Assembly (NCBI RefSeq): GCF_963675165.1
Contig: NC_087392.1
Location: forward strand, 1,379,001 to 1,443,000
Reading direction: 5' to 3'
Source of the DNA: Halichondria panicea
Lineage: Eukaryota > Porifera > Demospongiae > Suberitida > Halichondriidae
DNA: 64,000 nucleotides
Made by a program: the position numbers and the translations under genes. The notes under the pieces were generated by a model. It had not been told where the DNA came from. It was given only the letters and a program-made list of their open reading frames with translations, and did no database searches. Below are positions 7,594 through 64,000 of the stretch, one piece after another (position 1 is the stretch's first letter; each line of letters starts with the position of its first letter).

Positions 7594-8948
7594 TCATTGA
7601 TGTCTTTTCAGGTGGAGAGCAAGATGGTCGGATCTTGAGAAAGCTCGCTCACAATGGGGGCACTTGAATGGTTTGACTCCAGTGTGCTTTCGCATGTGTC
7701 TTGTGAGCTCATCAGAGCGTGCAAATTTCCATGTGCAGCCTTCCCACGTGCACTTGTACGGTTTTTCTCCAGTATGGGTCCTCTGGTGGGCCTTGAGGTG
7801 AGAGCTCTTGGTGTAGACCTTGTTGCAGCCAGGATAGCTGCAACGGTGGACTCGCTTGTTCCTCTGTGGCTTGGCATAGTAATAGACAGCGTTTACAAGA
7901 TCATAGGGGTTGTAGGGGGCCATTCCAGGTGCCATAAGGTGAGGGAAACCCAAGTGCTCCTTCATAGGCGAAGAGGGGTTGGAGTTCACGCCGGAGTAAT
8001 GATACAGGGGAACGGAGGGAGGGTACACTTGTCCAGCATTGGGTGCCTGGGTGTATACTTGAGTGTTGACGTTGATGTTCATCTGAGAGTATGAAGGAGA
8101 CGAGATGCCAGCAAAATCAGGCAGCTGAGACCTCACCAAGGCCTTGGAGTCAGCAGGTGGTGGAGAAGCTTGGTTACCAAATGACTGAAAGGGGTAGTGG
8201 CTGAGAGGGTGGCTGCTTTTGATGCCAGAAGGGCTTGCGATCCCACAAGAAGAGGTAAGCTCAGTCTTGACTTCGATTGGGAACTCCTCTGAAGCCATTG
8301 GTGGACTGGGGCAATACTCAGACTTGACAGAAGGACTGAGGGCAGGGTTGCTGATCTCATCAGAAAGCTCGAAATCGCGAAAAAATTCGTCTAAATCGGA
8401 AGCATTTGAAGAATTATCGTCGCTCTGACTGCCAAGGTATTTGGTCATTTCGTATCGAGCCTGCGAGTGAAGAGAGGGAATCATTAAAATACAGTTGAAA
8501 ATAAACATCAATAGAAGGCTAAAAAGGTCCAGTGTGGAAGGTTATTACTGGCTATGTGGGTGGATATTCCTAAGAGACATAAAGCAACCGTCGTTGGTGT
8601 GGGCAAATTAGACAATAGCCTGGCAACTGAGGAAATTCAATTACTCTAGTTGATACAAGAACATGAATCTTGTCACCAGACTGCATGCATTAAGGCTGCA
8701 TGCAGTTCAATGAATAACCACACGTTTCACTAGTAAACAACTACAAGAGGATAATGCTAAATCACCTTCTGAATTTCTTCGTCAGAGTGGAAGCCGCTGT
8801 CCTCTAGTTCAGAGGAGTAGCTGTACTCGGATGGGGAAGCTACACTCGGAGGGCTAGGGGTCCCAAAGGTGTAGAATCGTTCGTTGGCAGAATAGGTTGA
8901 CGGATTTTGTTGGGAAACAGGCAGGCAACTGAGAACTGCAGCAGACAT
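7594..8948 (-). CDS. Kruppel-like factor, KLF5-like (gene B)
   Basis: Two coding exons: 8948-8766 (ATG to AAG|GTGAT) and 8460-7594 (after CTCGCAG), joined in phase 0 to give about 350 aa. The C-terminal 85 residues hold three KLF C2H2 fingers with helices [18 protein letters not shown] and RSDHLALHL, ending LKRHQ at the very C-terminus as in vertebrate KLF5 and relatives. The N-terminal part is Ser/Pro-rich and low in structure, with an acidic stretch ([14 protein letters not shown]) that could be an activation domain. Two psi-K-x-E sumoylation-like motifs, VKSE and VKTE, also resemble activator/repressor switches in other KLFs. By family it is a nuclear factor binding CACCC/GC boxes. The exact orthology within the KLF family is not determined. 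Confidence 0.9.
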
Positions 8949-32199: not shown

Positions 32200-35100
32200 T
32201 CACTGTGTGACTGACTGGAGGAAGGTACAGAGTGCAGTAGCGACCGACTCCAGCTGATCGTTTCCTATAGACAAAGAGTACATAAATTTGGGGCAGACAC
32301 ATACAGTAACACACACCTACCTTTAGAGACCTCTCCAATGTCTGCAAGGACTGTTGTCAGTTGCTGAACATAGTTCCCATTAATGGCCACTTCTAAAAGC
32401 TCTGACTTCCATAGAGCTGACCGAGAAAGCTCTACACAAATTGGCATATGACATCGATTAACGGCGCCAGTTTATACTTTGATATACCATGTACCTTGCA
32501 CGGATATAAACCATAGTTCAGAGATATCCTCCCACAAAGTAGCTGAGAGTGATTGGTCTCCGTGCCGCTTCACACCTGGGCAATCCCTCAGCAAGGACAC
32601 AAGGTAGTGAAGAATGGAAGTCAGTGTCTCTTTGAATGGGGCTTGAGTTTGTCGACTGAGCTGATCTGAGCCTGTACAATGGAAGTGGATGATAGCAGTG
32701 AAACTGCATTACACCATGCATAACCCAATGGCTTTGAAATTAATGGTAAAATTCCATATCAGTACTTGTATTTATAAACAGATGTTGGACAGATTTTGAG
32801 TGATATTCATCAATTCATTGACATACAAAAATAACTGCACTAGACATTCTCACAATTTAAACTTGTTTTTGCTGGTACACTGATCAACAGTTCTAGCACA
32901 TACACTATCATGATGTAAGTTTTTGTACATAAACAGTCCATGTCTCTGAAACGCTCCTCCACCAACAAACAGGACACATTGTGCACGAGTCACAATCACC
33001 TTTTGTAACAGTCCAATATATCCCGCGTCTTTTGTGCCGGACACACTCTCAAATCCATCCTCCCATTCTCCTATCGAGGCACCAGCTCCGTACATACCCT
33101 GAAAAAGATGCATCACTTCATTACTGATTTCTGGTTGCGCTCCTTTCCTCCATTTCTTGCTTCCGTACTTTCCAACGTCAATTGAAAGGAATGCATTCTC
33201 GAGCTTAGTGTCCTTCTTAAACTGCTGGAACTTGTATAGAGTGTCCTTGAGGCAGTAGGGGACTGTCTTGTGTGTAGTGAGAAGGCTCATTTCGTATCGA
33301 CCCATGACAGCCAAAAACGGCCCTCCACTAAAGTGTCTATTGATATAAATTTCTGCATCATGAACTAACCGCTGACTGGGACTAATGATCTCTTGAATGG
33401 GGTAGGTTTCGGCACAACCAGAGTCTCTAATGAGAACACGCTGGCCAGAGCCCATCCCCCTCCACATCTCCATGATAACAGTCACCTCGTTACTCGAGTA
33501 ATCACCCAGTATGTGAGAGTTGAATTCGTTCAATGATAATTCATCACCATAGTAAAAGTTCAAACATACTTGACGTACTATTGTAAAACCTTTAGTTTTA
33601 AGAAAATTGACTTCAGAGGATGATGGAAATTTGCTATCACAACCAATCTTATATCGGTCTCCTTGAGGTGAATGCAGCACTTGTTCACCAGCTTTCTGTC
33701 TTGCTTTCAAAACACTAACTGAAGGATAGTTGAACGAAACAACGATAACTTTTTGGGGCCCTTCAATAAGAAAATCTTCCCAGTTTATCAGAGATGAATA
33801 CTGGTACTGATCGGAGACTCTCTTCCACTCGGCCGTATCGAACAGATCCCCAAATCTCAGTTGGCTCTTCCACATTTGGTCATTGAGTGGAGTCAGTAGG
33901 GAGGAGTCTTTGGTGGCTGGTTGAACTACATCTAGATTAAGCGTCTTTGCCCAGCACTGAAGTTGAAACATGTTTCGAGAAGCCATTGTCTGCTGTTCAT
34001 AGTAGTTGATTGCAAGTACCACTCCTCTCTTGACACTGATATTGTTGGGGTCAACTTTGAGTGGAGGGATCTCAGTAACACCTTTTTGCATTATAACTGG
34101 CTGATTTGATTCCATCACTTTGTGTCTAACTATCACTGCAACAGGTACACTTTCAGAGGATGAGTTGAATACTGCTTTATGCACAACAATTGAAGTATTT
34201 TGATCAGAGGAAGGAGACTCTTTTGGAGGGGAAGGTTTATTTCTTTCCTCAGCTGAAGACTTTATCATCTTTTCGGCTTTGAGAAGATCAGGTGCAACTT
34301 GTAGTAGTCTTTCTGGTGTGTCTTCATAATGACTCTCTATATTGTGCACCTTAATCTTACGACCATGTTTTACAATAGGGATGAGGTCATTGGGTTCAAT
34401 CGAGGGAGAGCTACTCACTTTGAGGGCTTTAAGATTGAAGATGAAAAGGCCTAAAAATAAAGCTAGAGCTACCAGCAGTAGTAAGATTTTCTTGAAGAGC
34501 CTAGCCATCTTTAGTTTAAAAGTAAGGACTAGCTGCATACTGCTGTAACTAGGAATGTAACAACCATAGGAATGTAACACAAACACAAATGCAATTTACA
34601 TGCCACACTTGCTGCTAGGGCTCTAAGAAACCTTGTTCGTAATCAATTAACAACATGCTAGCTAAAGTCAAGAGTGTTGGTGTGCTCTGTACAGTAGTAT
34701 CGATAGTGCTCTTATTCACTCATACCTACCTACGATCAAACGTTGCTATACAAAGTCAAATAATAGTTGGAAGAAGACATCATTCTACACAGAGTCAAAT
34801 AGAACTACCAATAGTTAAAAGAGGAAATCTTTCTACACAGACCATAAAAAAGAGTGATCCCACAAGAGGCTTTGTCGTAGCTGGTGACTTCTGGGAACAA
34901 TTTTCATCTGCAAGTAGAAATTTGCAAAATCTTCAGTGCTGGGCAGGAAAGGTTGGAGCTAAGGTGGTGGAACCCTACTCTGTGAGCTCAATGCTTCGCA
35001 CAACAATCGGACCACAGCAGTCCAAGCTAAAGTTCAGTGATCTTATTGATCTGGAGTATTGGAACCAAGAGAGTGTGAGGATGAGAAATGCAGAGGTTGT

Positions 35101-38100
35101 ATCATATGAGACGTTCCTGAAAGAAGCAACAAAAGATGTTATCATAGTGCAACTCAAATTCGTTAAAAGTAAGACCAGAACATTGCAAGCAGAAGTGAAG
35201 CAAAAGCCCGACAAATTCCAACCAAGAGAAATCAGATACAAAAACGGTTGCTCCAAACACAGTAAATGGCCAAATAATGATCTCATCAGTCAAGCTGGCT
35301 TCAATATTGTACGAAAAGTTTGCTTCAACTTTGAATATGGAGACAAACTAACAATTGATGAATTCAATGAAGCTATATATAACACACACAGCCCTAACAG
35401 TACTACAGTGTACTTTGAACAATGGAAAGGACTGGCTGCTTCTGGCCGTATAAATGTTGTAAATTCAGGATGCTCAAATACGGGTATACAGGAGCACATG
35501 CCTCCCAGTCCAAGGCTATTAAAACATGTCGACAGATATATCACAAAATACCTAACAAACAGTGAGTTTATCGCTATTATTGCAAGGATTGAAAAATCAA
35601 AAAACGGACTAAGCAAGCGGCAAGGCTCTATAGGATACTGTCTAACAAAGACACTTGAGCATTGGAAAATGTTCTCTGCTAAAAAAAGTCTGAGCAAAAC
35701 ATTTCTATCCATAGATATGGGAAAATATGGGAGCAAAAGTTTCAAACAAAATGCCACGATTCAGCAAGACTTTCAAAATTTCTTTCAAGGTATGTATGGT
35801 GACAAGTGGAGCGTTGCAGAGTGGGAGCGATCATTTGAAGACATTGGGGATACCACCGATGCAGGCTACATAGCACTACTCCAGAAGATGATTGTCACAA
35901 GAGCAACGTGTGTGCTGTTTGTGGGTGGAGGGTCGTTCCAGAAGCACGCTCTGGCATTGTATCAAGCTAGAGTCCCTGAGGCTGATTGGTGCATTCATAT
36001 AGTGCCTGTATGTACTCAGAAGGGCAATTTGGAACTTATTCATGCATAGTTAATGTTACTAGTATCGATCACATTAAAATGGTGATGTAAACACCATAAT
36101 TATATTAATTGTGTAAATGATTATAAGGCTTGGATTCCAAACGTTTGCATAATTGCATTCCATGCTACAGGTACAGTTGGGTAGGGTAGTTAACACATAC
36201 ACCTTTGTATTTAGCTATTTAGCTATAGATCTAGTTAACTATAGAAGCTAAGATGACCATCACAGGCAAAATCAAGATAGTTTTTATCCTTCTAGTGCTA
36301 GTCATTCTGCTATTAATGACCAACAGCTCATACTATTATCAAAGTGCCTTGTTAACTACAAGCAGGAATGAAGGTCGATCAGAGCATTCCCGTACAGCAT
36401 CAAGCTACAACAACAGTATTGAGAGGCTACTAGTTACAGAGATGGAGAACATGCTGAGACATAATTTAACTAACTCACAAGAGCAATTAAATGTTACTGA
36501 ACTAAATAACACTACAGCCGAACACAATAACATTCTGTCACCTTTTGCTGCATCACTACAGACAGCCTCCTTGAAACAAGACTACAACACTGAAGGAGGG
36601 TACATAGTAGTACTGGACATATACGAACAACAAACAATGGCCTCAGGCAACCTACTACAACTACAATGTTGGGCCCGGTATTTGAACATGGTGGTTGTTA
36701 AGCCGTTCATGAAAAACTCGAATATGTTGACCCCATTAGATGAAACTAAACAACTGGGCATGCTCAGAATGGAGGACACGTTTGACATGCACGACTGGGA
36801 AGAGTACACCAGAGATGTTGGATACGCTCCACTCGTAGAATGGGCGGAATTTGTGAGAACAGCCCCCAGAAAACTGATTGTTGTACAAGCTAAATACCCA
36901 GTCTTAACGTATGTAAGAGACGTACGAGCTAGGGGACTCCCCTTTCCCCACCCCCCTTCAGCAAAGAAACTTTACGCTGAGGGATGCAAATTCAAGTTTC
37001 TACACAGCAAAGGATTGTCTTATTTGCAGTCAAGAGGGTTTGTGGTTGCACGTACTGTGTGTCTCAATTTCCTATCAGGGGATGAGTTAACTATGAAAGA
37101 GATTCAAGAACACATTTTAGGAGAATATGAAAATGAAAAAGTGTCGATTCTTATTAGCGAGTGGAGAGGAATTGGAGAGAATCAGAGATTTTTAGTTCAA
37201 GAAAACATTTGTCCAGAAGAGAAAGCTTATAGAGAGCACACAAAACCAAGTGCAAGAATCTTACGCGATGCAGAACTCTATACTCAACAGTATCTAAGTC
37301 ACAATGGTGGTAATACATCATACGTGGCTGTAATGGCCAGATACGAAATGACAGGACTGACTAAACACAAGATCAGTGATGGAGATACACATGCCATTAT
37401 TCCCAGCTGCCTAAAGCAAACTAATCAAGGCTTGGAGGTAGTGAAGTCTGTCAAGCACATACCACAGGTGTTCCTTTCTATAGACATTGGAAAGTATGGC
37501 AGTGACAGTTTCAAAAACAAACATTATTTTGGCCACCTCTCAGACATGGAAGCATTTGTGGAGAAGCTACAAGGATTGAAATTAGAGGACTGGGAGAAGA
37601 CCTTTGAGTCAGTTACACACAACCAAGACTCTGGCTACATAGCCATGTTACAACTAGTATTAGTCACTAAAGCTGATTGTATAGTGTTTGTAGGGGGAGG
37701 AACATTTCAAAGACATGCTCTACATTTGTATCAGGAGTTACATCCTAATGAAAGCGACAGATGTGTTAGGATAGTTGAGAAATGTACAAGTCCATACAGA
37801 CCAGTTACAAAGTGACTTTAATTTGCCTTATTATACTACCATTCTATGATATCACTCACCTGTTTTGTTTGCAATGAGAATGAACAATAGAAGAGTGTTC
37901 ATCTTCAAAATGGGACATGAGGGAGGGGCTACAGAATGTGTGCATGAGGGGCACAGATGAGGACATGTGAGAGAGAGTGGGAAATAGTAGGAGAGGCAAA
38001 CAAAACGTTGTACACAGCAATCAATGAATGCACAAAAATGTATAGATTCCCTATAAAACATACATGTACCATGCACATACCTACTACGTGCATGGTACAT

Positions 38101-48584: not shown

Positions 48585-48823
48585 ACTGCTCCACTGACAA
48601 TCATTAGATAGATTGCATGCATACATTGTTTCTTGCTCACTGCTCACAAACTTTACTGTATAGTAGTTATATAATATTATTATGCAGCAGTTCACTTTGC
48701 TTCCTGTGGTTTGTTGTACTCTTTGCTAACTCAATTAATGAAGGAATGCAAAATAAATGCAAACCACATGAAGTGCTTGACAAGACTCTGTAGCTTTAGT
48801 AGTGTTCTTACTGTACCTACGAA

Positions 48824-51800
48824 ATGGCTGATGGAATAGACATACAAGTTGTAGCAGCTAGCCCCCCACCTTTACAAAATAACGATGTTACTGAAGCTCT
48901 CACTGACAAAGAAATAGAACAGTACGGTGGGCTAAATTTGTCTGATCGAATGAGAGATGTTCTCCAACGGCCAAGAGGTAGTATCTCTTTGGAACAACCT
49001 TCTCCAGTCTCCAATCTAAGACGGCCTTCAATTATTGAAATGGTGAATAGTGGAGGCCTTGTTTTCAATCAGCGTGGCTCATGCGAAATCAACTTGGAAA
49101 ATCTGCCTGCACAAGATGTTGAAATGATGTACCACTATCATGGTCATAGAAGAGGCTCTTTCCAACCTAGCGAGAACCCGTCATGGAACCAGAGTCTGGA
49201 CACAAAGGACTCCTTAAATGACGACCAAGAAGAAACCGAAGATAAACAACACTGCTGTTCTCACACACGTTGGAACCAAAAATTCGACTCTCCGATCCTC
49301 GAGAAGCATCTGAGTAGAACTGTGATGGAGTTTCTTCGAATACGTTTCCGTTTTGCTCTGTTGTTTATTGGTCTCTTTACGCTCATCTGGCTTGTATTCT
49401 TTGCTGCCAGCATTCCATTCACCCCCCCTGACTCAGTTCAACCAGTCACGTTGAGTGTGAATCTTTCCGTGTTCAGTGTGTCTTACAATGTTGGCTATGT
49501 GATTGGAGCGGCAGTGTTGTTTGTATGCACCATAGCTCTTCTGTTTTTCACCTATTCCCAATATTATAGGTTTATTGCAGTACCACTATCGGTTATTTTA
49601 TTCATTGTTCTCATGTTCTGCTCGTTTGCTTTGGCACTGGCTTTGCATTTTGATCGAGAAGTACAAGGATTCCTCACCATGGCGTATGTGGCACAATTCA
49701 CAATCACCTCAATTATAATACTGATGATTTTTATGCTTTCCCGAATGCCATTTTGGGTTTCTATAACCATGTGTCTTTTGTACCTTGTCATTCTAGAAAC
49801 CCTTCTAGCCATTTTCACATTCATTCCCAGGGCCCCCGGAGTTATGGAAGGTGGACCTCACTACCCTCAGAACTTTTACGTCAATTCACTTGTAGCTCGT
49901 ATCATGTTTTACGTTTGTCTCATTTCAGTTAGTGCGAGCACCTCTTATCTTTCTCGGCTACGACAGAAAGTCACCTTTTGGAAGATAGCACAGTGTGTCT
50001 TGTCGCAGAAGGCCCTTGAGCTCGAACGAGAATTGGAAGAGAAGACAATCCTCTCAATGATGCCAAAACCATTTGCAGAAGATCTGATGAATGTTCAAGT
50101 TCAAATGGCATTCATGCTCAAGACAAAAGTGGGAATTGAAAGCCTTGACCCACAGTTCCAGTCTATATCCGCACCATTTAACATTTGTAGCATGGAAAAT
50201 GTATCTATTTTATTTGCCGACATTGTTGATTTCACTAAGTTTTCCTCCTCTCTCTCGGCTCCAGAGTTGGTGGGGATTCTGAATGATGTATTCTCAACCT
50301 TTGACGAACTAGCCATGCAGTGCAATTGTGAGAAGATCAGCACTTTGGGGGATTCCTATTTCTGTGTTTCTGGGTGCCCTGAGCCAGCTGCAGACCACGC
50401 CGATAACTGTGTGAACATGGGACTGTCCATTGTTAAAGCTCTGGAAGAATTCAGGAGAAATACTGGTCACCCAGTAAGAATGAGAATTGGTATGTATTAC
50501 TACGAGCTTAAATAGATTAATTTTACTATTGATGTTTTCTCTGTTGTAGGTATTCATACTGGCTCTGTGTTCTGTGGTGTTATGGGAACGAAACGATTCA
50601 AGTTTGATGTCTGGTCAAAAGATGTGCGAATCGCCACCAAGGTAGAATCGACCGGAAGTGCTGGTAAAGTCTTGATCTCCTCAGCCACTAAGCTGTTTCT
50701 CTCTGACGACTACACCTTCCAAAGACTCAACACTCCCACTGGTGTCCCAGAACTTGCTGATCTCAAGCTCTACTTTGTCGAACTCCCCTCTCTCATGACT
50801 GACCCTGACATGGAATCAAGCATGCTCAAAGATGATGTAGAGTTGGAGCCATACCGCTCATTAACCGCTCGCCCGTCTCTCTCTACTTGTGAGTCTCCAG
50901 TTCGTAAGGTGGCTGCGCCCCTCCCCCTCTGTCCCTGCTTGCGGGCCCAACACACCACTGCCCCTGTTGGGAGGCCATTGCAGCCAGCTACCTCGATTGT
51001 GGACATTTTTTCTCGTCAGAAACAACTACAGCGATGCACTTCGTATGTGGAGCTACCAGTACCCAAACCTACAGACGAAAATAATGACAAAATTGTGGAA
51101 CTCATGGAAGAACAAAATGTGAACTTTGAAACGTATTTCGACCCCCAATTGAAAGCTATCTCCCTGTACTATCAGGACCCAGACTTGGAAGCATCTTATC
51201 GAAACCACGGACAAGACTTGGACGATGGTTCTAACATTGGTATGGCTGAAATCACGTTGGGATTCCGGATAACCAAGCTAAGCTACATGATTGACACCAC
51301 TGTTTTATTCATTAATTACCTGCTAATCATAATTGGATCTGTCGTTTGTCTGAACTCCGAAGGCACACTTGGGGAAGTCTGGCGTTCTCTGCTAGCTGTC
51401 GTTGTATTCGGTCTGATTATTGACATACTAATCATGGTCTTTGTGTCTGCTGTTTTTGCCCCAAAACTTTTCCCTAAGAGATTTGCGAAATTTGCCACTT
51501 TTATTGTGAACTGGTATGCCAGATCCATAGTTGCACTCTTCATGATCTACTACCCTATGACTATTGTGTATGTGAGCATAGCACAATGTAAGACTGGATT
51601 TGGATCAGTGGCAGGCCTGGCTCATGTCCAAATGGCCTTCTTCATAACAGTTCTTGTTCTGATTAGCAGTATCTCATTCATGGATGTCAGCTACTTTGTC
51701 AAATGTATTGGAGGCTTTCTGTCAGCTGCTCTGGCAATTGGTATGATTGTGGGCGTTCACATGACCCTCTGTATTGCCAACTCTAAACTGTACAATGAAA

Positions 51801-52765
51801 CACTGTCTACGTCTGCAACTCCGACCGATTCGGCCAGATTGGAGTCAGTGACACATAATGGTCGCATCCTCCCTACAGAGTCCCCTGAATCGTATGTGAT
51901 GACCTACTTCACAAGGCACGTGGCCCCCGAAACAACAGTACTTTTGTTACTAGTTCTCATTTTGCTCATGGTTGTCAATCGGATGTCTGAAGTGTCTCTT
52001 CGTCTCCATTTCATCGCTCGAATTGAGGCATCGGCTCGAAGGAGATTGGCTCGATTACGCAAGGCCCAAGCCGACTGGCTACTATTCAACATTATACCCG
52101 ACCACGTTGCTAGGGAGTTGCGAATTAACGGAAAGTACTCGCAAGACCACGAGTGTGTGGGTGTCATCTTTGCTTCTATTGTCAACTTTCGAGACTTTCA
52201 AATGAACACACCAAACAGTGATGAGGAGTCCCTTCGAGTGCTCAACTTAATCATCAGTGAGTTTGATGCTCTTTTGGATCGTGAGCAATTCTCCAGTATC
52301 GAGAAAATCAAAACTATTGGTAGTACATACATGGCTGCTTCTGGTCTACCACTGGATTCACAAGGAAGAAATGTAAAGCACCTTTTGGAACTTGTGGATT
52401 TCTCAGAGAAACTCATTGAAGTACTAGAGCAAATCAACACACAAATGCCTGGGTTTGTTTTCAGAATGCGTATTGGGTTCAATTTTGGACCTTTGACGGC
52501 TGGAGTGGTTGGAAGTAGGAAGATGCTGTTTGATATATGGGGTGATACGGTGAACGTTGCTAGTCGAATGGACTCTACTGGTTTAGTGAACAAGATCCAC
52601 ATGCCTGAGACCTGTTTAGAAAAACTCTCTCCCTATGTTAATCACGAGACATACAAAGTTGTCAATGTGAAAGGAAAAGGCGAAATGAAGACTGTGTTCA
52701 TTAGACTGGGCTCAAGACAAGAAGATGATGTACCTCCCCACAGAGCAACATGTGAACTTCATTGA
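48824..52765 (+). CDS. ADCY9: Transmembrane adenylyl cyclase, type 9-like
   Basis: Two exons, 48824-50489 and 50550-52765, joined in phase 1 (RIG|IHTG), 1293 aa. Residues 1-165 are cytosolic; six membrane helices at about 175-385; C1 catalytic domain at about 440-640; six more helices at about 800-1010; C2 at about 1060-1260. C1 shows the metal-binding stretch NVSILFADIVDFTKF, the CEKISTLGDSYFCVSGCPEP block and RFKFDVWSKDVRIA. C2 shows IKTIGSTYMAASGL and LFDIWGDTVNVASRM, with the transition-state Asn/Arg block present. Conserved RFKFDVWS and the ADHADNCVNMGL segment fit AC9 better than other animal isoforms. Converts ATP to cAMP downstream of GPCRs. Starts 239 bp after the ISWI stop on the same strand. 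A single intron is unusual in this window. Confidence 0.92.
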
Positions 52766-53332: not shown

Positions 53333-54957
53333 CTAGACGCTCTCCAGTACAGGTGGCTCGAAAGTATCAGTGCCTCCCTTCCCTGAGGCACTATCACCGT
53401 GGAGGTCCAATAATCTACCAACTGTGTGTGTTGTGTGCGTGGAGAGGGTAAATTCTAGATTCTTAAGGCAGAGCTGATCTATTATGCATAAATTCGTATT
53501 ACATTTATAGATATCATTCTGAACACCTAGTTCAAAACTCACCATCAAACTTGGGTTTCTTGAGGACTTTGACTTTTCTTATAAAGACATCATGCAGAGG
53601 GTAGATGGACTGACATCTCTTCTCAATATCCTTGCCAATACTGTCCGGGATCCTGCACAACGATCAAACAAGATCAATATTATAGTGGACGTACCAATAG
53701 CTACAAAATTTAGCAGCGTATCAGATGTGCTCTATATATATTGGTAGGTTAGGAAACACAACTATAATTACATAGTTATAAAGAATGGTCATTTACTTAC
53801 AGTTTGTTGACTGTCTCCTTGAGGTCGATCTGACTGATCTCTCGATTCATCGTCTCCACCATCTTCTTGCGAATTTGCCTGCACTGTGATGACTTGGCAT
53901 AAGAGGTTTTCTTGATCTGGTTGGGTTGTCTCTTTGTGAATCCAATGCAAAACACTCGCAGGAGGTATCCATCAGTTGTCTTCACATCAACATTAGCTTC
54001 AATCAGTGTCTGAGAGGAAGGAGGGTACACAGAAAATAGACAATTTATTAATTTTGTGTAGCAGCATATCGGGCATAATGCTATCAAAAGATATTATATT
54101 TTCTACCTAACAATGGAGGGAGGCAATGTAGACTTTCACAGCATGGGAGGTAATTGAAGCAAAAGCAGTTGCCAGTATAGTACATACGCAACAAGACACA
54201 CACATCCTTACCTGCCATTTCTTGACAAGAGCACGAAGCTTGTCGGTTGTCATTGTCATTCCATGGAAGTTAGTGAGGACACTTTTCCCCTGGATATCTT
54301 CTGAGATCAGACGGAACTTTCTGAATGATTGCTCGTCATTTTGGAGGTCAGCTAGAGAAACCTCAAATACTCTACCCTTGAGTCCATCACTGGCAAGCTC
54401 TAGAGTGGGAAAGAAGAGAGAGCACAATGTCAGAGTGTGTAATGGTAGAGGGGCCGTCTTGGAAAGGAATAACTAGCGTATGAGTATAAATACAGCTATA
54501 TTTATGCGGCCTCAGTACAGAGTTGTCCGCATTGTCGATTGAACTAAGACAGGGATAACTTGTGATCATCATAGACAGTGCAAACTCGGCAAGAACTTTA
54601 GATCTAAATACATACACACTGCCTAAAAGTTTAAGCGTATGAAAAAATACGACCACTTGCAAACATACTTTTTCCTTGAGTTCTGGTGACTAAAGTCTTG
54701 CCAATGTTTCTGACTGCAAACATGGACGGGGCTTTGACATCATACCAGTCCTTCTTGGTAAAGGGATCAATTCTGTAGCGTGGGTATAGGCACAAGTAGT
54801 AACTGCATCCTTTCTAATCCTTAGTCTACGAGCACTTTTACTGTACTAAGAGCATAGGTACTACTTATATGGATACAATATTTGACGTAGATACTCACAT
54901 CTTTTTTTTTGATCCCTTCTTCCCCTTGGTTAGCCTCTTGTTCTTACCGACAGCCAT
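53333..54957 (-). CDS. RPS3A: Ribosomal protein eS1 (RPS3A)
   Basis: Six exons. Exon 1 starts at 54957 ([19 protein letters not shown]), followed by [19 protein letters not shown] with [13 protein letters not shown], then [20 protein letters not shown] with [13 protein letters not shown], then [22 protein letters not shown] with [18 protein letters not shown], then [23 protein letters not shown] with [12 protein letters not shown]. The last exon (VGRLLDLHG...FEPPVLESV) ends at stop 53333. Component of the 40S subunit near the mRNA exit. The C-terminal variable stretch is about 10 residues shorter than in human. A pyrimidine tract and E-box lie just upstream, and a probable snoRNA lies in the second intron. 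Confidence 0.96.
54508..54577 (-). ncRNA. Probable C/D box snoRNA in an RPS3A intron
   Basis: On the - strand: C box ATGATGA (54572-54566) and D box CTGA (54515-54512), about 50 nt apart, in the intron between the exons starting IIDPF and ASDGL. After the C box comes AGTTATCCCTGT, followed by CTTA, a possible D' box. That 12-mer is the exact complement of the conserved eukaryotic 28S segment ACAGGGATAACT. RPS3A introns host snoRNAs (U73) in vertebrates. The terminal stem is weak, so I am not certain. Confidence 0.5.
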
Positions 54958-56518
54958 GATGATTAGTGAAAAGGAAGGAGTTCCACGTGCTTCATATTTA
55001 TGTACATGCGCATAAAATCTCTGTGGGGAATAGTTGTCAAGCAGAGGTCGTCAAAGTTAGAATCTTGCAGAGTAAGCAGCCACACCCAGTTATGCAACTC
55101 TGCCCACCACTCCCCCCTAGCTAGCTAGCACTCTGAGATTGACAGTGCAGTGTAACTAGTGACAGTGTATACAACAGTGAATGAATAGTGAACAAATTGG
55201 AGCTTTATTTTGCTTCTCATATATGCAGGTGAGTTGTTCTTGGTCTGTGTGTCTGATGCATTACATCTCCTGATGGTGTTCTGGTGTGCAGAGTCAGTGT
55301 ACATTGTAGCTACATAGTAGTCATGTGTATTAATTAAAAACAATCTCCAATTCGTGTTGTTTTTTAATGTGTACATTTCAATGTACGTAGTTGGCTCATT
55401 GATACACATCATTAGTACGATCATGATTAGTATCTATACATGATTGTACGTCTGGTTAGTATAAGTATGCAATCATTGAAATGTGCTCAAGAGATACGAT
55501 ACAGTAGATCTAGTGATGTCGGTACATGGTGAACCATCTCAGTATTCTGAGACAACAGTGAGTGGGAAATCTTTCTCACTCTCTTACTAACAGTTTTTCA
55601 CAAGCATCTCTTTAACATGAGGGAATATACAGCAACCTGAACCTATATCCTGAAGTGCTAGTACTGTTGGGACACAGATTCCCTTAAAGGCTCTGTTTTG
55701 ATATTTCCTGCATGTAAATGTACTTCTCATATTACTTAACCTATTGTGTATAAGACTGTAACTAAATACAAGCCCCCCTCAGTCTAAGCTGTGCAATAGA
55801 GCATGAAAAAACTGTACCACAGAAATTCATAATGTTCCCTCAGGGGACTTCAAAATAATAAATAACTGTGTGTGCTATTTTCTTACCTGTCCAAGAGTCT
55901 CTGCCAGATATGGCTTGTGTTTACATGAGAGGTACTCCTCCACTGTGTGGGTGGATATTGGTTAGACCTAGTCGTTGTGGCTTGTACGAGCTACATGATG
56001 TTACTGCTACTACGAGATATGCCTCGGGGGGGGGGGGGGTACTGTAGAAATAGTGCACATATAGCTTTAACGACTTTGGCCTGAGGTTTTGTTGAGTGGT
56101 AGGTTTGCAGAAAGCCCACTTAACCTAATATGTGGACTGTGGTGGTCATGTGTTGTGAATAATGATTAGCATGTAATTACTGAAATAGTTTAAGTACAGT
56201 ATAAGCTTCCCCCTTGCTGTGTGTGTCAAATACTTGTGTCGTGTAAAGTGATCTGTCATCATGTGTTAATACAATGTACAATATAATGTACAATGACGGA
56301 TAATTTCGTGCCTGTAAAACACATAGGACATTATATATCATGTAGCTGATAATTGTCTTGTAGCAAACAACATCATCCTTGTAAGGACAATATTTTGCCA
56401 GCTACAATGCCAGCTACAAAGCTAGCCTTGGCCAAATTTTCTTCGTATATGCTGTACTAAAGAATGTAAATGTCAATTATGTGAAGTTTTTCTTTGGTGC
56501 CCAGATGATCTAAGGTAG
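54958..56518. other. Divergent region and probable 5' UTR intron of the SOD-SH3 gene
   Basis: Holds the RPS3A promoter, then a likely noncoding first exon of the + strand gene ending at 55228 (ATATGCAG|GTGAGT). Its intron could run to the acceptor TTGGTGCCCAG just before about 56504. There is a poly-G run near 56028-56038. No other open frame is credible. Confidence 0.45.
54968..54980 (-). promoter_or_regulatory. TOP-like pyrimidine tract of RPS3A
   Basis: On the - strand CTCCTTCCTTTTC lies 11 bp before the ATG, as expected for a 5' terminal oligopyrimidine transcript start. Just upstream are an E-box CACGTG (54984-54989) and an AT-rich TAAATATG (about 54993-55000). Confidence 0.6.
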
Positions 56519-59500
56519 ATGAAGATGTTGATGAATGGCAGGTGTTGGTGGTTTCTCTCTCTACTGTTTCTGTTCCTGCGACCGACCCTCGGACTGAGAG
56601 TGAGGTCAGAGTTCAACCAGCGAGGCGTGAGCGGGAGCATCGAGTTCTCACAAGATGGACCAACCGATAACACCACCATTACAGTCAATCTGACCGGTGT
56701 GTTTCAGTGTGTGCTTGCTTCAGTGTAGCTAGAGGCCTATTTTATATACATATACATGACACTGTAAGGTGCTATAGTTACGTTGTATTAAAATTGAAAC
56801 GCATGTGTATATACATGTACATTTATGTTTGTTCATAGATCAATTGTTACTCTTAGTCAGAATCATAATCTACTACTCTATTACCCGCCCCCCCCATACC
56901 CATACAGGTCTCAGTCTCCACGATGATACTCTCTTCCAGTGGCATGTTCACCAGTATCCCTTTCCGCTGAATGGTATCCCTAATCCATGCGGCGTGGCCA
57001 TCACTGGGGGCCATTACGACCCCTTGGGGGCAAACTCAAATCAAAATTACACCCAGAACTGTGCTCAAGATCCAAGCAACTGTGAAATTGGTGATTTGAG
57101 TGGAAAGTTTGGTCTGCTCAACATTTCTCAATCCAATAACGTGATTGCTCAATACATTGACTCCACCCTATCACTACATGGTGTGTATAGTATTATTGGA
57201 CGCTCTATAGTCGTCCACCTCTCGGGCGGAGCTAGATTGGTCTGTGCGAACATTGACTACCCACAAGATACAGATACGGCTCAATCCGATATACTCATCT
57301 CTTCGTTTAGAAACCAATTCACTGGATATGTACATTTCAGGGGCCACACTGACAGCAACACTTCCTCTGTGTACACCAATCTCTTGCGAGTAGCTGGGAA
57401 CTCAACTTCGACTGGTCATAACTGGCATGTACACGTGAAGCCTCTGGATGTGAACGGTACTGATTGCTCTCTTGCTGGACCACATTATAACCCGTTGAAT
57501 GTCGATGTAAGTAACAATTATTCTATTTTGTGTAACCCTACAAGGCAAGAAAACTGTGAGATTGGTGATCTCTCGAATAAAGGCTCTCCGTACAGTGTTG
57601 TTAATCGTGTTGCTAAGCAGTTTTACACCGATCTATCTCTACCACTATCTGGAGACATGCTGTACATTGTCAATCGCTCAATTGTAATTCATCAGGAGAA
57701 TCGTGGTGGCCCTAGAATAGCTTGTGCTAATCTGACTCGATTTACTCCCCTGGAAGCTGTTGTGAACTTTAATAACGAAAACGGGATAACAGGCAGCATT
57801 CGATTTTCTCAGCTATCACTTTTTGACTACACATTCGTGACAGTTAACCTCCAAGGTTTGGCTGGAATGGCTGGAGGCTATCACGTACATGTCCTACCTG
57901 TTCCTCCTGAGGAGCCTGAGAGTTGTTTATTGACCCTGGGGCACTGGAACCCCACTGGAGTGGTGTACAATGACAGCATCACGCGACCACTAACTAGCGA
58001 TGAGTACGAGATAGGAGATCTAAGTGGGAAATTTGGAGGACTAGGCGGTCTCAATGAATTAATGGAAACATATTCGGACCCAAACGTGCCTTTGTTTGGA
58101 TTGTACAGCATTGTAGGACGATCTGTTGTGATTCATCGAACTGATGGATCTAGAGTGGCTTGTGCAAATATAGAACTAATCAGACCGGTTTTACGAGTTA
58201 TGGTATCTGTTAATACATCCAGCTTGAGAGGACAGATCATTTTTACTCAGCCAGCCGACGATCCATTCTCTGAGACGACAATCACCGTGGAATTGATGAT
58301 CCTACAGATAATAAACGTGACTACGCCCACTCCAAGTCCCACCCTCAGTTCTACCAACATACCCTCCATGACGCAACTTCCTGTTGAGGTTACTACTAGC
58401 CTATTCCCCTCTCCAGACACTACCTCAACTGTGGGTGCAGCGTCCTCGTTCCAGACTGTGTTTCCATCCCAGACAGTGCAGTCCATTCCAGTGTTCAGTT
58501 CCAGTGTGGACGTTGGCAGTGGTGACAGTATGCTCCCGTTTGGACCAACAAGTGAGCAAAATACTGTAAAAGCATAATCGGTCTTGTTTGTGAGATATTT
58601 GCCATTCTAGTGAGCGTATTCATTCATTTATTACTACATGTATTTGTGATTAATATTTGTGTTCTCCTCTGCAACTACAGCACCCGTTGCTCCAACACCC
58701 AGTGTCAGCCCCACCCCGATGTCTCGAAGGAGACGAGCCGTTAACAGTCGTACAAGAAGGCAGGCCGTGGGCGGAGTGGTCGGCTTCGATTGGAGCGTGA
58801 GGATGGTCTCTCAAGATTCCCCCATGGACTGCAATTCTCTGCCTGTCTTTGACCTAGCACCAAGGTTGTTGTGGCTTCCTGTGTGTTTCTTTAGAGCTCG
58901 TATTTGTGGCTATAAAACACCTTCAATGTTACAATATAAACAGTATTTCAATATGAACAGTATTTTCTAAAGCAATGTGTTTACACAGTATATTGTGTTA
59001 TTGGTGTGTACATAGTACACTTCTTTCAGTATGCCTTTGAGAGATAAACGAAAACGACGTAATAATTGATCAGCCCCATTTTAATGAACTACATGTACTC
59101 TGTATGTATTATAATCTACATGTTTCTGGAATGAGATCATTTATTAAACGTATTCACCTCCTCTCCCTCACAGTGACCCAACACTTTGCTCCCCGACCAT
59201 CCCCCTGGCATGTTCAACTGGTGATCTCACAGGGAAACATGGCCCCCTCTCACTCCCCGCCACCCCTGGGACATTCTCGGCCGTCTTTACTGACCCTTCA
59301 CTCCCCCTCTCTGGTCCACAGTCGCCATTCACAACACGAGCAGCTGTTCTTGTACAGCAGATGGGTGGATCCGTGGAGACGGCAACATGCTCATTGGCTG
59401 GCATGGTCGAAGAGCCACCTCCAATGACAATTAATCCCCCTACCACACTGACTGAGACCACACCTACGATGCAAACCACCACACCACCACCAGCAACAGG

Positions 59501-62500
59501 TATTGAAAAACGATACCAGTCTCTTAAACTGTTTGACTCCCTCCCCCCCCCACACACACTCATACACTGATTTAGCTGATACTGTAATCATTGGTGCCGT
59601 AGTGGGAGGTGTGCTAGGTGCTCTCCTGTTAGTGGGTGTAGTCATCCTACTCGTCTGTTGTTGCTACTGCAAGTCACAGAAGTCAGAGTACAAAGTGAGC
59701 AAACAAGCAGCTCTTGAAATGGGGACTGTTCGTCCATCCAAGCCTATACTCGGAGGTGAGCTATAGTTCTGCACGTGTAAATGCATGTGCTAGGGTAACT
59801 AACTGACAGGAGTGATTTGAATGCTCTTGTAACAAAATTGAGAGCTATTGATGGTATGTTTTAGCGAACAGTAAGTATTAAGCCAAATCATTAATTTGTG
59901 TTAATCCATGTAGGTTCACCATTATACTGTGCAGTGTGATACGTATTACTCTTATAGTTAACTGAAACCTGATATGCATGTACATGTACCACCCTCCACC
60001 CTTGTACACATTCTCCTCGTCTCCACAGTGCCCCACTATCGAGCACTCCACAACTATGCCCCCCAGAATCCGGATGACCTGGAGTTGGAGCAGGGGGAGT
60101 GGGTGACACTAATGGAGACCCCCGCTGGTGGGGGTTGGTGGAAGGGGAAAGTCACGGAGGGAGGGGAGGGATGGTTCCCACGTACCTATGTGGAGTACAT
60201 AGATAGAGACGCTGAGAAAAAGAAACAACAGGATGGTGAGTTTACGAACTTTATGCTGTTCCGTTTTATTTTTATTTTTTAGTAGCTGTGTATAAGGTTG
60301 TATGTTTAGTTATGTCAACACACACTCATCCTCAACAGAGAACTTCTTGATGGCAGCATCGGCCATTGTGGCGGCCTCAACATCATTCAACGTCCAGCAT
60401 CCCTCCCTCACACAGACCCGTCATCAGACACTCCCCTCAAAACCCAACAAGAGAGCCTTGTCCTTCAGCAAAAAGAAGGAAGACAAGATTGACTTGGAGA
60501 AGCTTCAGAGGTCACAAACGATGAACCGTAAGATTGATATTGACTCCACCCCTCGTGCTCTGAGGAAACTCGATCGACCTTACCTAGATACATTTAATAG
60601 GCAAGTTATCTTTTTGTTGAGTGGATCCAAAGCAATTTGGTACTACTCACCTTATAACTGCATTTATATTTGTGTATGTTTTGTAAGCTATGTAAATGTA
60701 CAGGAGTGCATGAACTAATTACTGTCCCTTTATAGTGATGAAAATGGAGAGGCTACAATCATTTCTAATGAGGGAGGAGAGGTAGTGAGTAATGGCGGGA
60801 CGCTACCAAACACACCCGTGAGTCAGAGGAACGTAGCCTTCTATGCCAATTCAGCAGCTATCGAGGGATCACCTCAGTCCCTAAGGGCATCAGAGCCGGT
60901 AGGTGGAGCTTCAAGTCATGTGACTCTAATAATTATAATGATCATGTAATACTGCAGGAGTATGAAAACGGAGAGCCAGACACTGATAAATACATAGCCA
61001 AACATAATTTCGATGGGTCTACGGATATCGAGCTCGAGCTGAAGAAAGGAGAACTTGTCACCGTTGTAGAGAAGTCGGACGGAGGGTGGTGGAAGGGTGT
61101 GTGTGAGGGGAGGGTGGGATGGTTCCCCCAGTCGTACGTTCGTCCTGCTCCTGTAGAAGCGAGAGAAAGCATGTCGGCCACCCAGCCAGCAAACATGGAG
61201 GAGATGATGAAAGCAGGTACAGTAGGTGTCTCTGTCTGTTTGAATGAATTGTTTGAGTGGCCACTTGAGTTTGTTCGTTCAATTTAAAATACTAACAGTG
61301 AGCTCTTTCATTTTTTTGGCAACTTAATGGGGGGAAAGCCCAAAATGTGTCCGTTAACTGAACACACCATAGAGAACTCAATTAAGTTATGGCTGATCAG
61401 AATGCTTGGATTTGTTACATGACACAAATACATTGTCAATGAGTTTAAGAAACAAGTTTATGGCACTCAAATTAATCCTGTTAATCATTTTCATGCCCCC
61501 TCCCCCCCACCAGGTGGTGATCTGGAGGCAGTAGAGTACTGCTCCATCTTCCCCTATCAGTCGGACACGGAGGGTGACCTTGTGTTTTCCGAGGGAGACA
61601 CTGTGCTCGTATATTGGGCCCAGGACAATGGCTGGTGGTACGGGGCAGTCGGTTCCACACAGGGATGGTTTCCTGGCTCTTTCGTCGAGGTAAGTATGGG
61701 TTGTGTAATATTCTGAAAGTCTCTGTAGGCATAGTGTTTTAGTTGCATGGTCATGGTTTATATAGAAGGACCGATTTCTAAGAGGTACATGTACTGTACA
61801 CTGAGCGTTGCTCACTGCACTAGGCCTGCTTTTGTACACATAATTATGTTGGAAGTACATGTAACTACTAGCATGTCTGATTCAAGATCATAATTTCCTT
61901 CTCTAGCCACTGATTGAATCTCCTGAGCCTCAAGATGAGAGACGAAAGGAGAGTAGGAGCTCGTTCAAGAAGATGTGGTCGCTACGTAAGAAGTCACGTG
62001 ACAAGTCTAAAGATGTTCCTCTGCTGGAGGAAGACAACGACGAGAAGTTACCGACAGCTAGCGAACCAGTGGGTCTGGAAGGTGAGTGATCCAATTGCCA
62101 TGGATGTACATGTACTTACTCAGTAGATGCATTTGCCATACTAATTTACATGCCATGCATGTAGCAACATACATGTATGGCAGCTGACAGAGTCCCCAAA
62201 CCATTGATTAGACGGGGGTAGGGGTATAGTTGAGCATCTTTCAACAGCCATAACTTTAGTACCGTTGATCCAATGTCAACAATTTTGTGATTTTCTGAAA
62301 GCTTAGAAAGAGACCTTTCAAATGATGTGTTTAAACATTAGGGCCATAATTTTTCGGCTTTCGGCTTTGGACCATGGGTATGAGAAAATTGGCAAATACT
62401 TTTATCAAAGTGAGATAACACCGTTTGAAAGGTCTCTTTCCAAGCTTTTTCAGAAAATAAAATTGAAATATTGGATCCACGGAATTTAAGTTACATGTAC

Positions 62501-64000
62501 TATAGGCCTACAGTCACTGACAATACTATCGAAGAGTCATGACTAGCCTCTGTTTGCCCTCAGGCCAACTCCAGGCAGCACTGGAGAGACGACGATCATT
62601 CGGTCGTGGACGTACCCTGGCAGTAGACGAGGAGGTGGCCCAGGGGGGAAGGAAAGAAAAGGGGCGTGGTGGGATGGGTGCCGTCGCTGATTTTATGAGG
62701 CGAAGCTTCAAGAAAACAAAGAGCAGGGACGAGCCAAAATATGAGGAGAAAATTGTTGAGAATACAAAAATTGATGAGATTTCTTCAACAACAAAACCGC
62801 CAGAAGAGGTTAGTTGTGATTAATTACTGCTGCAACACATAACATGAATTAAAAAAGTGTTAAGCTTTGTTCGTTCCTTATATGGAAAATGTTTCACTAC
62901 AAAAATGTATCTACATGTACATGTATATAACAGAACCACAGTGTGTTTATTCCATATAAGGAACGTGCAATGCTCAATGCTTTTAGTGATGTATTACAGA
63001 GATTCTTTGCAAACTCCAATACAGGCTCACCAAGTAGTAGTGTCTGTTTGCTTAGGTTAGTTCACATCCCTAGTTTCTGGCTTAATGCTGCTAGCCCTCC
63101 TCCTTATAGCTAGCTTAGTCTGATCATAATACTAAATAGTGCACAGCACATAATGAATTGCAATTGTTCTGTAGGTGGTACCAAAACCTGTTACACCACC
63201 AGCACCGTCAAGGTCTCCTCGCAAACGTCTGGACAGTAAGGCTAGACGAGCCCCTCCCCCTCCCCCTACAGCAACTACGCCCACTACACAGGCTCCACCC
63301 ACTTCTACACAGTCTGAACCGTTGAAAGAAGAACCATTAAAAGAAGAGCCGTCCCCTACCAAAGCCAAAGATACTAAGCCACCAACACCTACGCCACAAA
63401 TACGCAAGACCAGCACGGCCGCGGAAGCGGTGAAAACAACTCGCTCATTCTCTACTGCTCAGCCTAACTCCACCCAACCCATGATCCGTCCACGTAAACG
63501 ACTCACAACAACTGCAGGGGGCACACAGAGAAGACAGCCACCACCACCTCCACCAAGTGCGGCCAAAGTTGCCACACCTCCTGTTACACCCTCTCATCAA
63601 GCCACATCCTCAGATACAACAATGATTGCCAGCAGCACTAGTGCAGAGGAAGTCAAGGCACCTGCTAGTGAAACGAAACAAGTAAAGATCCCACCTGTTC
63701 CACCGAGATCCTCGCTACGTCCAAGAGTTCAACGCGTCAAGCGACCAATCAGTCGAATGATCCCCCCACCTCCAAACATTCCTCTCCCTCCCCCTCCAAT
63801 AAGAAAGGCATCCAAAATTGAGGAAACAATTCCGGCTATCAACAATTCAGAGAAGAGAAAGTCAATAGACAAACCATCAGTGGCACCAAAACCAGCTCAC
63901 TTGCGCAGATACAGCACCCCGACATCACCTACAGTTGCTCAAACGAATACAGAGCCTCTGAAATCACCTAAACCAAAACCACCCCCTCCAATGAGAACTA
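56519..64000 (+). CDS. Transmembrane protein with extracellular Cu-only-SOD repeats and three cytoplasmic SH3 domains (3'-partial)
   Basis: Thirteen exons with consistent phases; the last is open at the window end, at least 1608 aa. Exons: 56519-56696, 56908-58551, 58681-58864, 59174-59499, 59576-59755, 60029-60235, 60339-60600, 60736-60898, 60958-61216, 61514-61689, 61907-62081, 62564-62808, 63175 onward. Domains: signal peptide 1-25; SOD-like repeat 1 with WHVH (H72, H74), GGHYDP (H95), CEIGDLSGK, RSIVVH (H163) and RLVCAN; repeat 2 with WHVH, GPHYNP, IVIH, RIACAN; repeat 3 with YHVH, LGHWNP, VVIH, RVACAN. Then a degenerate fourth SOD-like unit split by a Ser/Thr/Pro linker with SRRRRAV and RTRRQ. 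One membrane helix at about 780-803 is followed by CCCYCK. SH3-1 about 838-900 (ALHNY, GGWWKGK, WFPRTYV), SH3-2 about 1058-1112 (GGWWKGV, WFPQSYV), SH3-3 about 1137-1193 (NGWWYGA, WFPGSFV); basic linkers; proline-rich tail from 1334. Copper ligands kept, zinc ligands mostly missing, as in copper-only SOD repeat proteins. Adhesion or receptor role is inference. Confidence 0.88.
62243..62475. repeat. Dispersed inverted-arm repeat, copy 2
   Basis: Starts ACAGCCATAACTTTA, with the left arm TGAAAGCTTAGAAAGAGACC continuing TTTCAAA and the right arm its inverse (TTTGAAAGGTCTCTTTCCAA plus GCTTTTTCAG), then AAAATAAAATTGAAATA. Same block order as 29104-29232 but with a longer centre. In an intron of the SOD-SH3 gene. 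Confidence 0.72.
62872..62965. repeat. Inverted repeat with 16-bp arms
   Basis: CGTTCCTTATATGGAA at 62872-62887 and its perfect inverse at 62950-62965, in an intron of the SOD-SH3 gene. Possibly a small foldback element. Confidence 0.7.

Follow-up and report, generated by a model that had tools for sequence, protein, structure and literature searches.

A sponge gene model joining copper-only superoxide dismutase repeats, a membrane helix and SH3 domains

A 64,000-nucleotide stretch of the genome of the sponge Halichondria panicea (hereafter the window, whose numbering is used for all features of the gene and is continued past its end) contains a forward-strand gene that joins a signal peptide, copper-only superoxide dismutase (SOD) repeats, a membrane helix, SH3 domains and a proline-rich tail, an order that is supported at the level of the gene model. 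We consider it very probable that this gene encodes one membrane protein, and probable, judging from its conserved residues, that the ectodomain is an active copper-only SOD. The ectodomain resembles those of the copper-only SOD repeat proteins (CSRPs), and the protein would tie such repeats through a membrane to a defined scaffold.

Exon structure of the gene

The locus lies in a 5.83 Mb contig (C16) of a 131.5 Mb, 39-contig genome. Candidate exons were taken from stop-to-stop frames and from the raw sequence over positions 54000-64000, and the 3' end from the sequence past the window. The gene obtained in this way has 13 exons between 56519 and 65148, amounting to 5973 bases including the stop and encoding 1990 residues, with one terminal stop. 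Exon 1 (56519-56696) carries the signal peptide and the first strands of SOD repeat 1, and is followed by exons 2 (56908-58551), 3 (58681-58864) and 4 (59174-59499), the membrane exon 5 (59576-59755), the SH3-1 exon 6 (60029-60235, phase 1-1) and exons 7 (60339-60600), 8 (60736-60898), 9 (60958-61216) and 10 (61514-61689). Exons 11 (61907-62081) and 12 (62564-62808, preceded by the intron 62082-62563) encode charged stretches and have no Pfam match, and exon 13 (63175-65148) holds the proline-rich tail and a last SH3 domain. The window cuts the gene, as exon 13 runs past 64000 to the stop at 65148; the extent of about 56519-64000 given in a first-pass annotation of the window was therefore too short.

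The coding frame is the sole stop-free frame in all 13 exons, and phases match across the joins. Each of the 12 introns has AG at its 3' end, whereas the 5' end is GT in 11 of them and GC (GCAAGT) in one; G+C content is 46-58% in exons and 33-45% in introns. With matching phases and one open frame across 13 exons, the single, phase-consistent gene proposed in the first-pass annotation is upheld, as is, at gene-model level, its joining of signal peptide, membrane helix and proline-rich tail with SOD repeats and SH3 domains. Phase-1 introns lie on both sides of the membrane exon and of the SH3-1 exon, which fits exon shuffling, a possible route from a secreted antioxidant to a surface signalling molecule. 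Introns 11 and 12 hold, by eye, imperfect inverted repeats resembling miniature inverted-repeat transposable elements (about 62280-62460 and 62865-62970).

The annotation had also raised the concern of an assembly join. Such a join is unlikely, judging from the assembled sequence, because there is no N anywhere in the gene and its position is deep inside the 5.83 Mb contig. More generally, we regard as highly improbable that the gene is an aberrant, non-functional fusion, whether a recent join or an assembly error under no selection. The gene comes from a single genome, and the nearest SH3 match elsewhere is just 51% identical, leaving no parent copy by which to date the event. Against such a fusion stand the 1990 intact codons, the regular splice sites and the intact catalytic residues, in addition to the uninterrupted sequence deep in the contig; moreover, a young duplication fusion should leave a near-identical SH3 parent and none was found, although relocation would leave none.

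Ectodomain and split fourth repeat

By reading, residues ~1-25 resemble a signal peptide. It is followed by three SOD repeats, recognised by Pfam and by motifs: repeat 1 (56597..57257, residues 27-176, spanning the intron 56697-56907), repeat 2 (57309..57740, residues 194-337) and repeat 3 (57774..58181, residues 349-484). The Pfam scan, made in three pieces that together cover the whole protein, matched Sod_Cu in three stretches (E 2.5e-35). A motif search placed the copper-binding His at 72, 74, 95 and 163 in repeat 1 (with Arg169, Glu119/Asp122 and the disulfide pair Cys87-172), at 233, 235, 252 and 321 in repeat 2 (Arg329, Glu277/Asp280, Cys246-332) and at 385, 387, 405 and 469 in repeat 3 (Arg475, Glu427/Asp430, Cys399-478). 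The four copper His and the active-site Arg are thus complete, as far as sequence alone can tell, in three of the four repeats of the protein, and the earlier claim of three SOD-like repeats with copper ligands and an active-site Arg is borne out by both the Pfam match and the motifs.

Several features point to the copper-only type. The closest PDB sequences are entries of the Candida albicans copper-only SOD5 (E 6.4e-14), and the mutants 5kbl (E110Q) and 5kbm (D113N) align their Gln and Asn at the Glu/Asp columns of repeat 3. Because the SOD5 mutants mark them, we read these columns, set by the mutants in repeat 3 and by alignment to repeat 3 in repeats 1 and 2, as the E110/D113 signature that copper-only SODs carry according to passages of a 2026 review (PMC13017621). 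In repeats 1-3 the stretch from the third copper His to the signature Glu, where the zinc positions would lie, contains no further His, and the spacing from the last copper His to the Arg is 6, 8 and 6 positions, respectively; both fit loss of the zinc site and of loop VII. The first-pass annotation had suggested a structure check. AlphaFold was run on repeat 3, with a three-sequence alignment, and gave a poor model with a mean predicted local distance difference test (pLDDT) score of 43.7, yet a Foldseek search of the PDB with this low-confidence model returned SOD5 in the first four places (best E 3.6e-4, template-modelling score 0.54). We take this match as supporting only. NCBIfam matched nothing in exon 2 or in the SH3-2 exon. 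N-glycosylation sequons number 13 in residues 51-529 and none from residue 530 to the membrane.

A fourth SOD repeat, absent from the first-pass annotation, adjoins the membrane. It is degenerate and copper-less, retaining neither the copper His nor the Arg, and it is split. Its N-terminal part (58200..58298, residues 491-523), found by profile, is weak on its own (4.1 bits), and its C-terminal part (58776..59402, residues 640-745, spanning the intron 58865-59173) contains Cys 658, 674, 682 and 741. Between them, after the first strands of the repeat, lies a Ser/Thr/Pro-rich linker of about 115 residues (58299..58775, residues ~524-639, spanning the intron 58552-58680), the first 97 of which are 53% Ser, Thr or Pro, with two furin-type sites near its end, RRRR (58725..58736, residues 623-626) and RTRR (58749..58760, residues 631-634). 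When the ectodomain was shuffled 20000 times, two or more such sites occurred in 31 cases. A profile built from repeats 1-3 and the six repeats of the genome's two other CSRP genes matched residues 673-741 of the full protein (20.4 bits); it scored 27.8 bits on the C-terminal piece (639-748) and 41.0 on the joined halves, the best of 2000 shuffles of the C-terminal piece reaching 9.2. When the profile was restricted to repeats 1-3, the C-terminal piece scored 16.7 and the joined halves 27.9, against best shuffles of 4.5 and 7.6.

After the signal peptide the ectodomain has 14 cysteines, distributed 4, 4, 2 and 4 over the four repeats, of which 10 precede and 4 follow the furin-type sites; the four cysteines of repeat 4 are all C-terminal to both. 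Since cysteines are even in number within each repeat and on both sides, a cut at these sites should break no expected disulfide, if the pairing is that of the SOD fold.

This fourth repeat bears on whether there are two genes instead of one, the first encoding a secreted copper-only SOD repeat protein that stops at 58577 and the second, downstream, a membrane or cytoplasmic SH3 protein. The frame of exon 2 does stay open until a stop codon at 58577, the downstream gene could have its start in the membrane exon or in a 5' exon that escaped notice, and the two other CSRP genes of the genome have no neighbouring SH3 match in a whole-genome list of at least 81 matches. However, exons 3 and 4 hold the rest of repeat 4 (less clearly with a profile of the other CSRPs), in phase with the membrane exon and SH3-1, and the repeat, with one cysteine in exon 3 and three in exon 4, has an even number of them only when these exons are joined. 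In addition, the forward strand has no AATAAA or ATTAAA between 58577 and 59143. Because exons 3-4 carry the continuation of repeat 4 and are joined in phase to the membrane and SH3 exons, the two-gene reading is disfavoured, and we consider it improbable.

SH3 domains, proline-rich tail and a possible mechanism

Only one hydrophobic helix exceeds the threshold (59584..59667, residues ~781-808; the best 19-residue window begins at 786). It leads into CCCYC (805-809), which is possibly a palmitoylation cluster. The cytoplasmic part of about 1180 residues has four SH3 domains: SH3-1 (60029..60198, residues 838-894, codon 838 having one base at 59755), SH3-2 (60985..61146, residues 1058-1111) and SH3-3 (61531..61909, residues 1141-1194, spanning the intron 61690-61906), all three with a GWW motif, and the C-terminal SH3-4 (64972-65139, residues 1933-1988). 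The first-pass annotation had counted three, the fourth being located beyond the window, and had proposed a search for SOD and SH3 domains; Pfam matched both families, with SH3_2 in three stretches (E 1.1e-35) and SH3_9 for SH3-4 (E 3.5e-9) in addition to Sod_Cu.

SH3 domains are common in this genome, with at least 81 matches in a whole-genome search, four of them within the gene. Using the SH3 half of the gene as query gave 26 matches, seven of which were the gene itself; the next (51% identical, 44.7 bits, C9:5230244) is an SH3 exon whose downstream frame reads like the start of a RhoGEF, and by reading the gene is probably beta-PIX. Among PDB entries, SH3-1 matched GRB2 and myosin Ib best, SH3-3 p47phox chains and intersectin-2, and SH3-4 GRB2, LASP1 and p47phox. 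For SH3-2, among the best 60 of 184 matches, the nearest chain with a single SH3 domain was beta-PIX/ARHGEF7 (52.4 bits), outranked by chains of GRB2, sorbin/SH3-1 and p47phox with two SH3 domains each. Within this genome, too, SH3-2 is nearest to the probable beta-PIX gene. A kinship of SH3-3 with p47phox was considered and dropped: the chain score sums two domains, and singly intersectin-2 scores higher. By reading, the genome also has an NCK-like gene with three SH3 domains and an SH2-like start.

The tail (residues 1334-1930) has 125 Pro in 597 residues. It contains PPVPPR inside the window (63691-63708) and, past its end but still in exon 13, APPRRPP/PPPRPPS (64144-64182) and six further Px[PAV]xPR motifs (64588-64857). 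The nine PxxxPR motifs compare with a shuffle mean of 1.93, and none of 5000 shuffles reached nine; the seven Px[PAV]xPR motifs compare with a mean of 0.65, again with none of 5000 shuffles reaching the count, a test that is overstated because four of the seven sit in a segment that appears, by eye, to be duplicated and the motifs are not independent. [RK]xxPxxP shows mild enrichment, with 10 occurrences, a count reached in 24 of 5000 shuffles. Passages of two papers report that Px[PAV]xPR is the motif preferred by the SH3 domains of CIN85 (PMC12730246), and that such a motif occupies a CIN85 SH3 domain in cis, an autoinhibition that tunes clustering (PMC10786037).

We give an even chance to a model in which the protein is a membrane-anchored, possibly furin-cut copper-only SOD that is clustered from inside through contacts between SH3 domains and proline-rich motifs. 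Three copper-only SOD barrels at the surface would bind outside copper and turn superoxide into hydrogen peroxide, a step strongly supported by the sequence. Furin may cleave RRRR/RTRR within the split fourth barrel; the SOD head would then either stay non-covalently bound, as in Notch-type heterodimers, or be released, since no cysteine bridge within repeat 4 spans the cuts. On the inner side, the SH3 domains would bind the Px[PAV]xPR array of their own or of neighbouring copies, leading to an autoinhibited or clustered state as for CIN85 and to recruitment of partners with the same binding code. The outcome might be a surface patch handling reactive oxygen species at cytoskeletal or endocytic sites, near an NADPH oxidase, for example the DUOX-like one described below. 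Whether the SH3/PxxxPR part clusters the protein is, taken separately, evenly poised, and roles as a receptor, in sensing or with actin are ones that we infer.

A bolder version is unlikely: a furin-cut heterodimeric receptor in which the degenerate SOD barrel, interrupted by a mucin-like insert, is a non-covalent clasp between the triple SOD head and a membrane-bound SH3 condensate scaffold, so that superoxide outside the cell, copper or a pull on the head alters how PIX/CIN85-type partners cluster inside. To our knowledge, an enzyme-headed redox receptor derived from a CSRP would, if that were true, be the first. The furin-cut clasp is, by itself, equally doubtful.

The same furin-type sites could serve to shed an antioxidant, with furin freeing a soluble three-domain SOD and the cytoplasmic part acting only in sorting and secretion. 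The two sites stand beside a Ser/Thr/Pro-rich stretch with no expected disulfide across, and known CSRPs work outside the cell. Yet a cytoplasmic part of about 1180 residues that includes a motif array and four SH3 domains seems far beyond the needs of sorting, and the split barrel could keep the halves together, so that we hold this to be unlikely too.

Somewhat less likely still is that the protein is an NADPH-oxidase organiser like p47phox or TKS, whose SH3 domains recruit the oxidase while the ectodomain converts its superoxide. SH3-1 to SH3-3 are three consecutive GWW SH3 domains, and a human survey, as given in passages of PMC12730246, finds runs of two or more of these nowhere but in CIN85/CD2AP and the NCF1 family. 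SH3-2, SH3-3 and SH3-4 all have p47phox among their best PDB matches, and the strong tandem-SH3 motif occurs twice in the tail, a count reached in 77 of 5000 shuffles. A DUOX-like NADPH oxidase also occurs on the same contig as the gene (L020:259-1653, C16 at about 2.046 Mb; 409 bits to dual oxidase 1; Pfam Ferric_reduct and FAD_binding_8), and a source of reactive oxygen species therefore exists. On the other side, comparison of single domains gives SH3-3 48.8 bits to intersectin-2 and 39.9 to p47phox SH3-A, C-[DE][DE] was not seen by eye in SH3-2 or SH3-3, and Pfam found no PX match across the protein. The genome search returned no p22phox, although no control matched in the same search either. 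A second NAD_binding_6 place was seen at C16:2.722 Mb.

Besides the apparent duplication in the tail, the following points weigh against the model of a clustered, membrane-anchored SOD. The exon joins are deduced from the genomic sequence of one species, and retention of intron 2, by which the frame stops at 58577 (58552-58577), would yield a secreted, three-repeat SOD-only form, a possible alternative product. The sole structure prediction is poor, as its pLDDT indicates. Repeat 4 is undetected by Pfam, and a profile of the six other CSRP repeats alone gives it a marginal 7.8 bits (C-terminal piece) and 15.1 bits (joined), with ceilings of 6.9 and 9.6 in 2000 shuffles; as the profile scores differ in this way, the repeat rests mainly on likeness to its own neighbours and less on the other CSRPs. 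At least one furin-type site occurs in 1150 of 20000 ectodomain shuffles. PxxPx[RK] is not enriched in the tail (5; 2109 of 5000 shuffles reach 5). SH3 specificity is read from similarity among very common domains, SH3-1 and SH3-4 matching GRB2 best, and SH3-4 may bind atypically, or not bind PxxP at all, because by reading it has Phe at the first conserved Trp and Ala at the late Tyr. Lastly, copper-less repeats of known CSRPs are N-terminal according to passages of PMC13017621, whereas repeat 1 keeps its copper site here; the copper-less repeat is the membrane-proximal one.

In the genome as a whole, Sod_Cu was matched at seven places. Two, at C16:969k, are exons of one ordinary-looking Cu/Zn SOD, and the others are the three in the present gene and a single one in either member of a tandem gene pair on the reverse strand of another contig (C2, about 1.47 Mb; L010:7783-9459 and L011:2308-3954), which read like secreted CSRPs. 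These tandem genes are closely similar, each with a first repeat that has a copper-type site (His-x-His) and two further, degenerate repeats. Within the window, large two-part frames at 48803-52765 on the forward strand suggest, by reading, an adenylyl cyclase of the membrane type that has two catalytic parts, and three similar neighbouring single-frame proteins at 32850-37815, one of them on the opposite strand, have an N-terminal hydrophobic stretch and look sugar-transferase-like by reading. A reverse-strand frame at 7594-8541 has, by reading, three KLF-type C2H2 zinc fingers. Papain-like proteases with Ser at the expected catalytic Cys were seen at L028 (C9:2570213) and L035 (C8:493345), L035 being one of several similar genes on C8.

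Comparison with known systems

The cytoplasmic part resembles CIN85 (SH3KBP1) and CD2AP in having several GWW SH3 domains and a disordered proline-rich part with PxxxPR-type cis motifs. CIN85 and CD2AP are soluble adaptors with a C-terminal coiled coil. Here, in contrast, the C-terminal end is an SH3 domain and there is a membrane helix, and where CIN85 has three SH3 domains, this protein has four, together with a membrane anchor and an enzyme ectodomain. The likeness to CIN85-type scaffolds drawn in the first-pass annotation gains from the seven Px[PAV]xPR motifs, which fit the CIN85 preference, but the SH3 domains have closer matches than CIN85.

Notch-type receptors are furin-cleaved, non-covalently paired heterodimers. 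The present protein likewise has a furin-type site in a loop of a membrane-proximal ectodomain module that could stay paired, but the module is a decayed SOD barrel, whose cleavage and pairing are predicted.

With the NCF1 family (p47phox/NCF1, NOXO1, TKS4 and TKS5) the protein has in common consecutive GWW SH3 domains, tandem-SH3 tail motifs and an acidic linker, here between SH3-2 and SH3-3 (31 residues, net charge -3). Unlike the members of that family, it is membrane-anchored. We do not file the gene in the NCF1 family, because Pfam matched no PX domain and because C-[DE][DE], which passages of PMC12730246 give as a further signature of the family, was not seen by eye in SH3-2/3.

The ectodomain shares with CSRP, CUSR and amphibian SOD4 the tandem copper-only barrels, copper ligands, E110/D113 signature, absence of zinc His, short loop VII and secretion signal, and with cnidarian CSRPs the number of four repeats (PMC13017621). 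Passages of that review describe CSRPs as having 4-12 repeats, as secreted or glycosylphosphatidylinositol (GPI)-anchored and as occurring from Capsaspora to amphibians, place them outside the cell and call their function largely enigmatic (PMC13017621); CSRPs have also been reported in a sea sponge (parts of PMC7730656). By comparison with these known members, our protein continues past a membrane helix into about 1180 residues that contain four SH3 domains, and in place of linkers of 5-9 residues its repeat 4 is split by a linker with furin-type sites (PMC13017621).

Full-text searches of the open-licence literature gave, among the matches listed, no description of a copper-only SOD-SH3 membrane protein. 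The words transmembrane, SH3 and sponge are absent from the main text of PMC13017621, and passages of PMC9118643 mention neither transmembrane nor SH3. A repeat-alignment search confirmed no relatives in non-eukaryote collections (100 genome-contig and 57 viral-contig pattern matches), and the same architecture may already be present, unnamed, in public sequence. A CSRP linked across the membrane with a defined scaffold would offer a handle on whether CSRPs signal, protect or shape local hydrogen peroxide. As predicted, the protein is a new architecture within a known family: its ectodomain can be filed as a CSRP, and the whole protein as a variant, because the rule that CSRPs are secreted or GPI-anchored describes the known members and not the SOD barrels.

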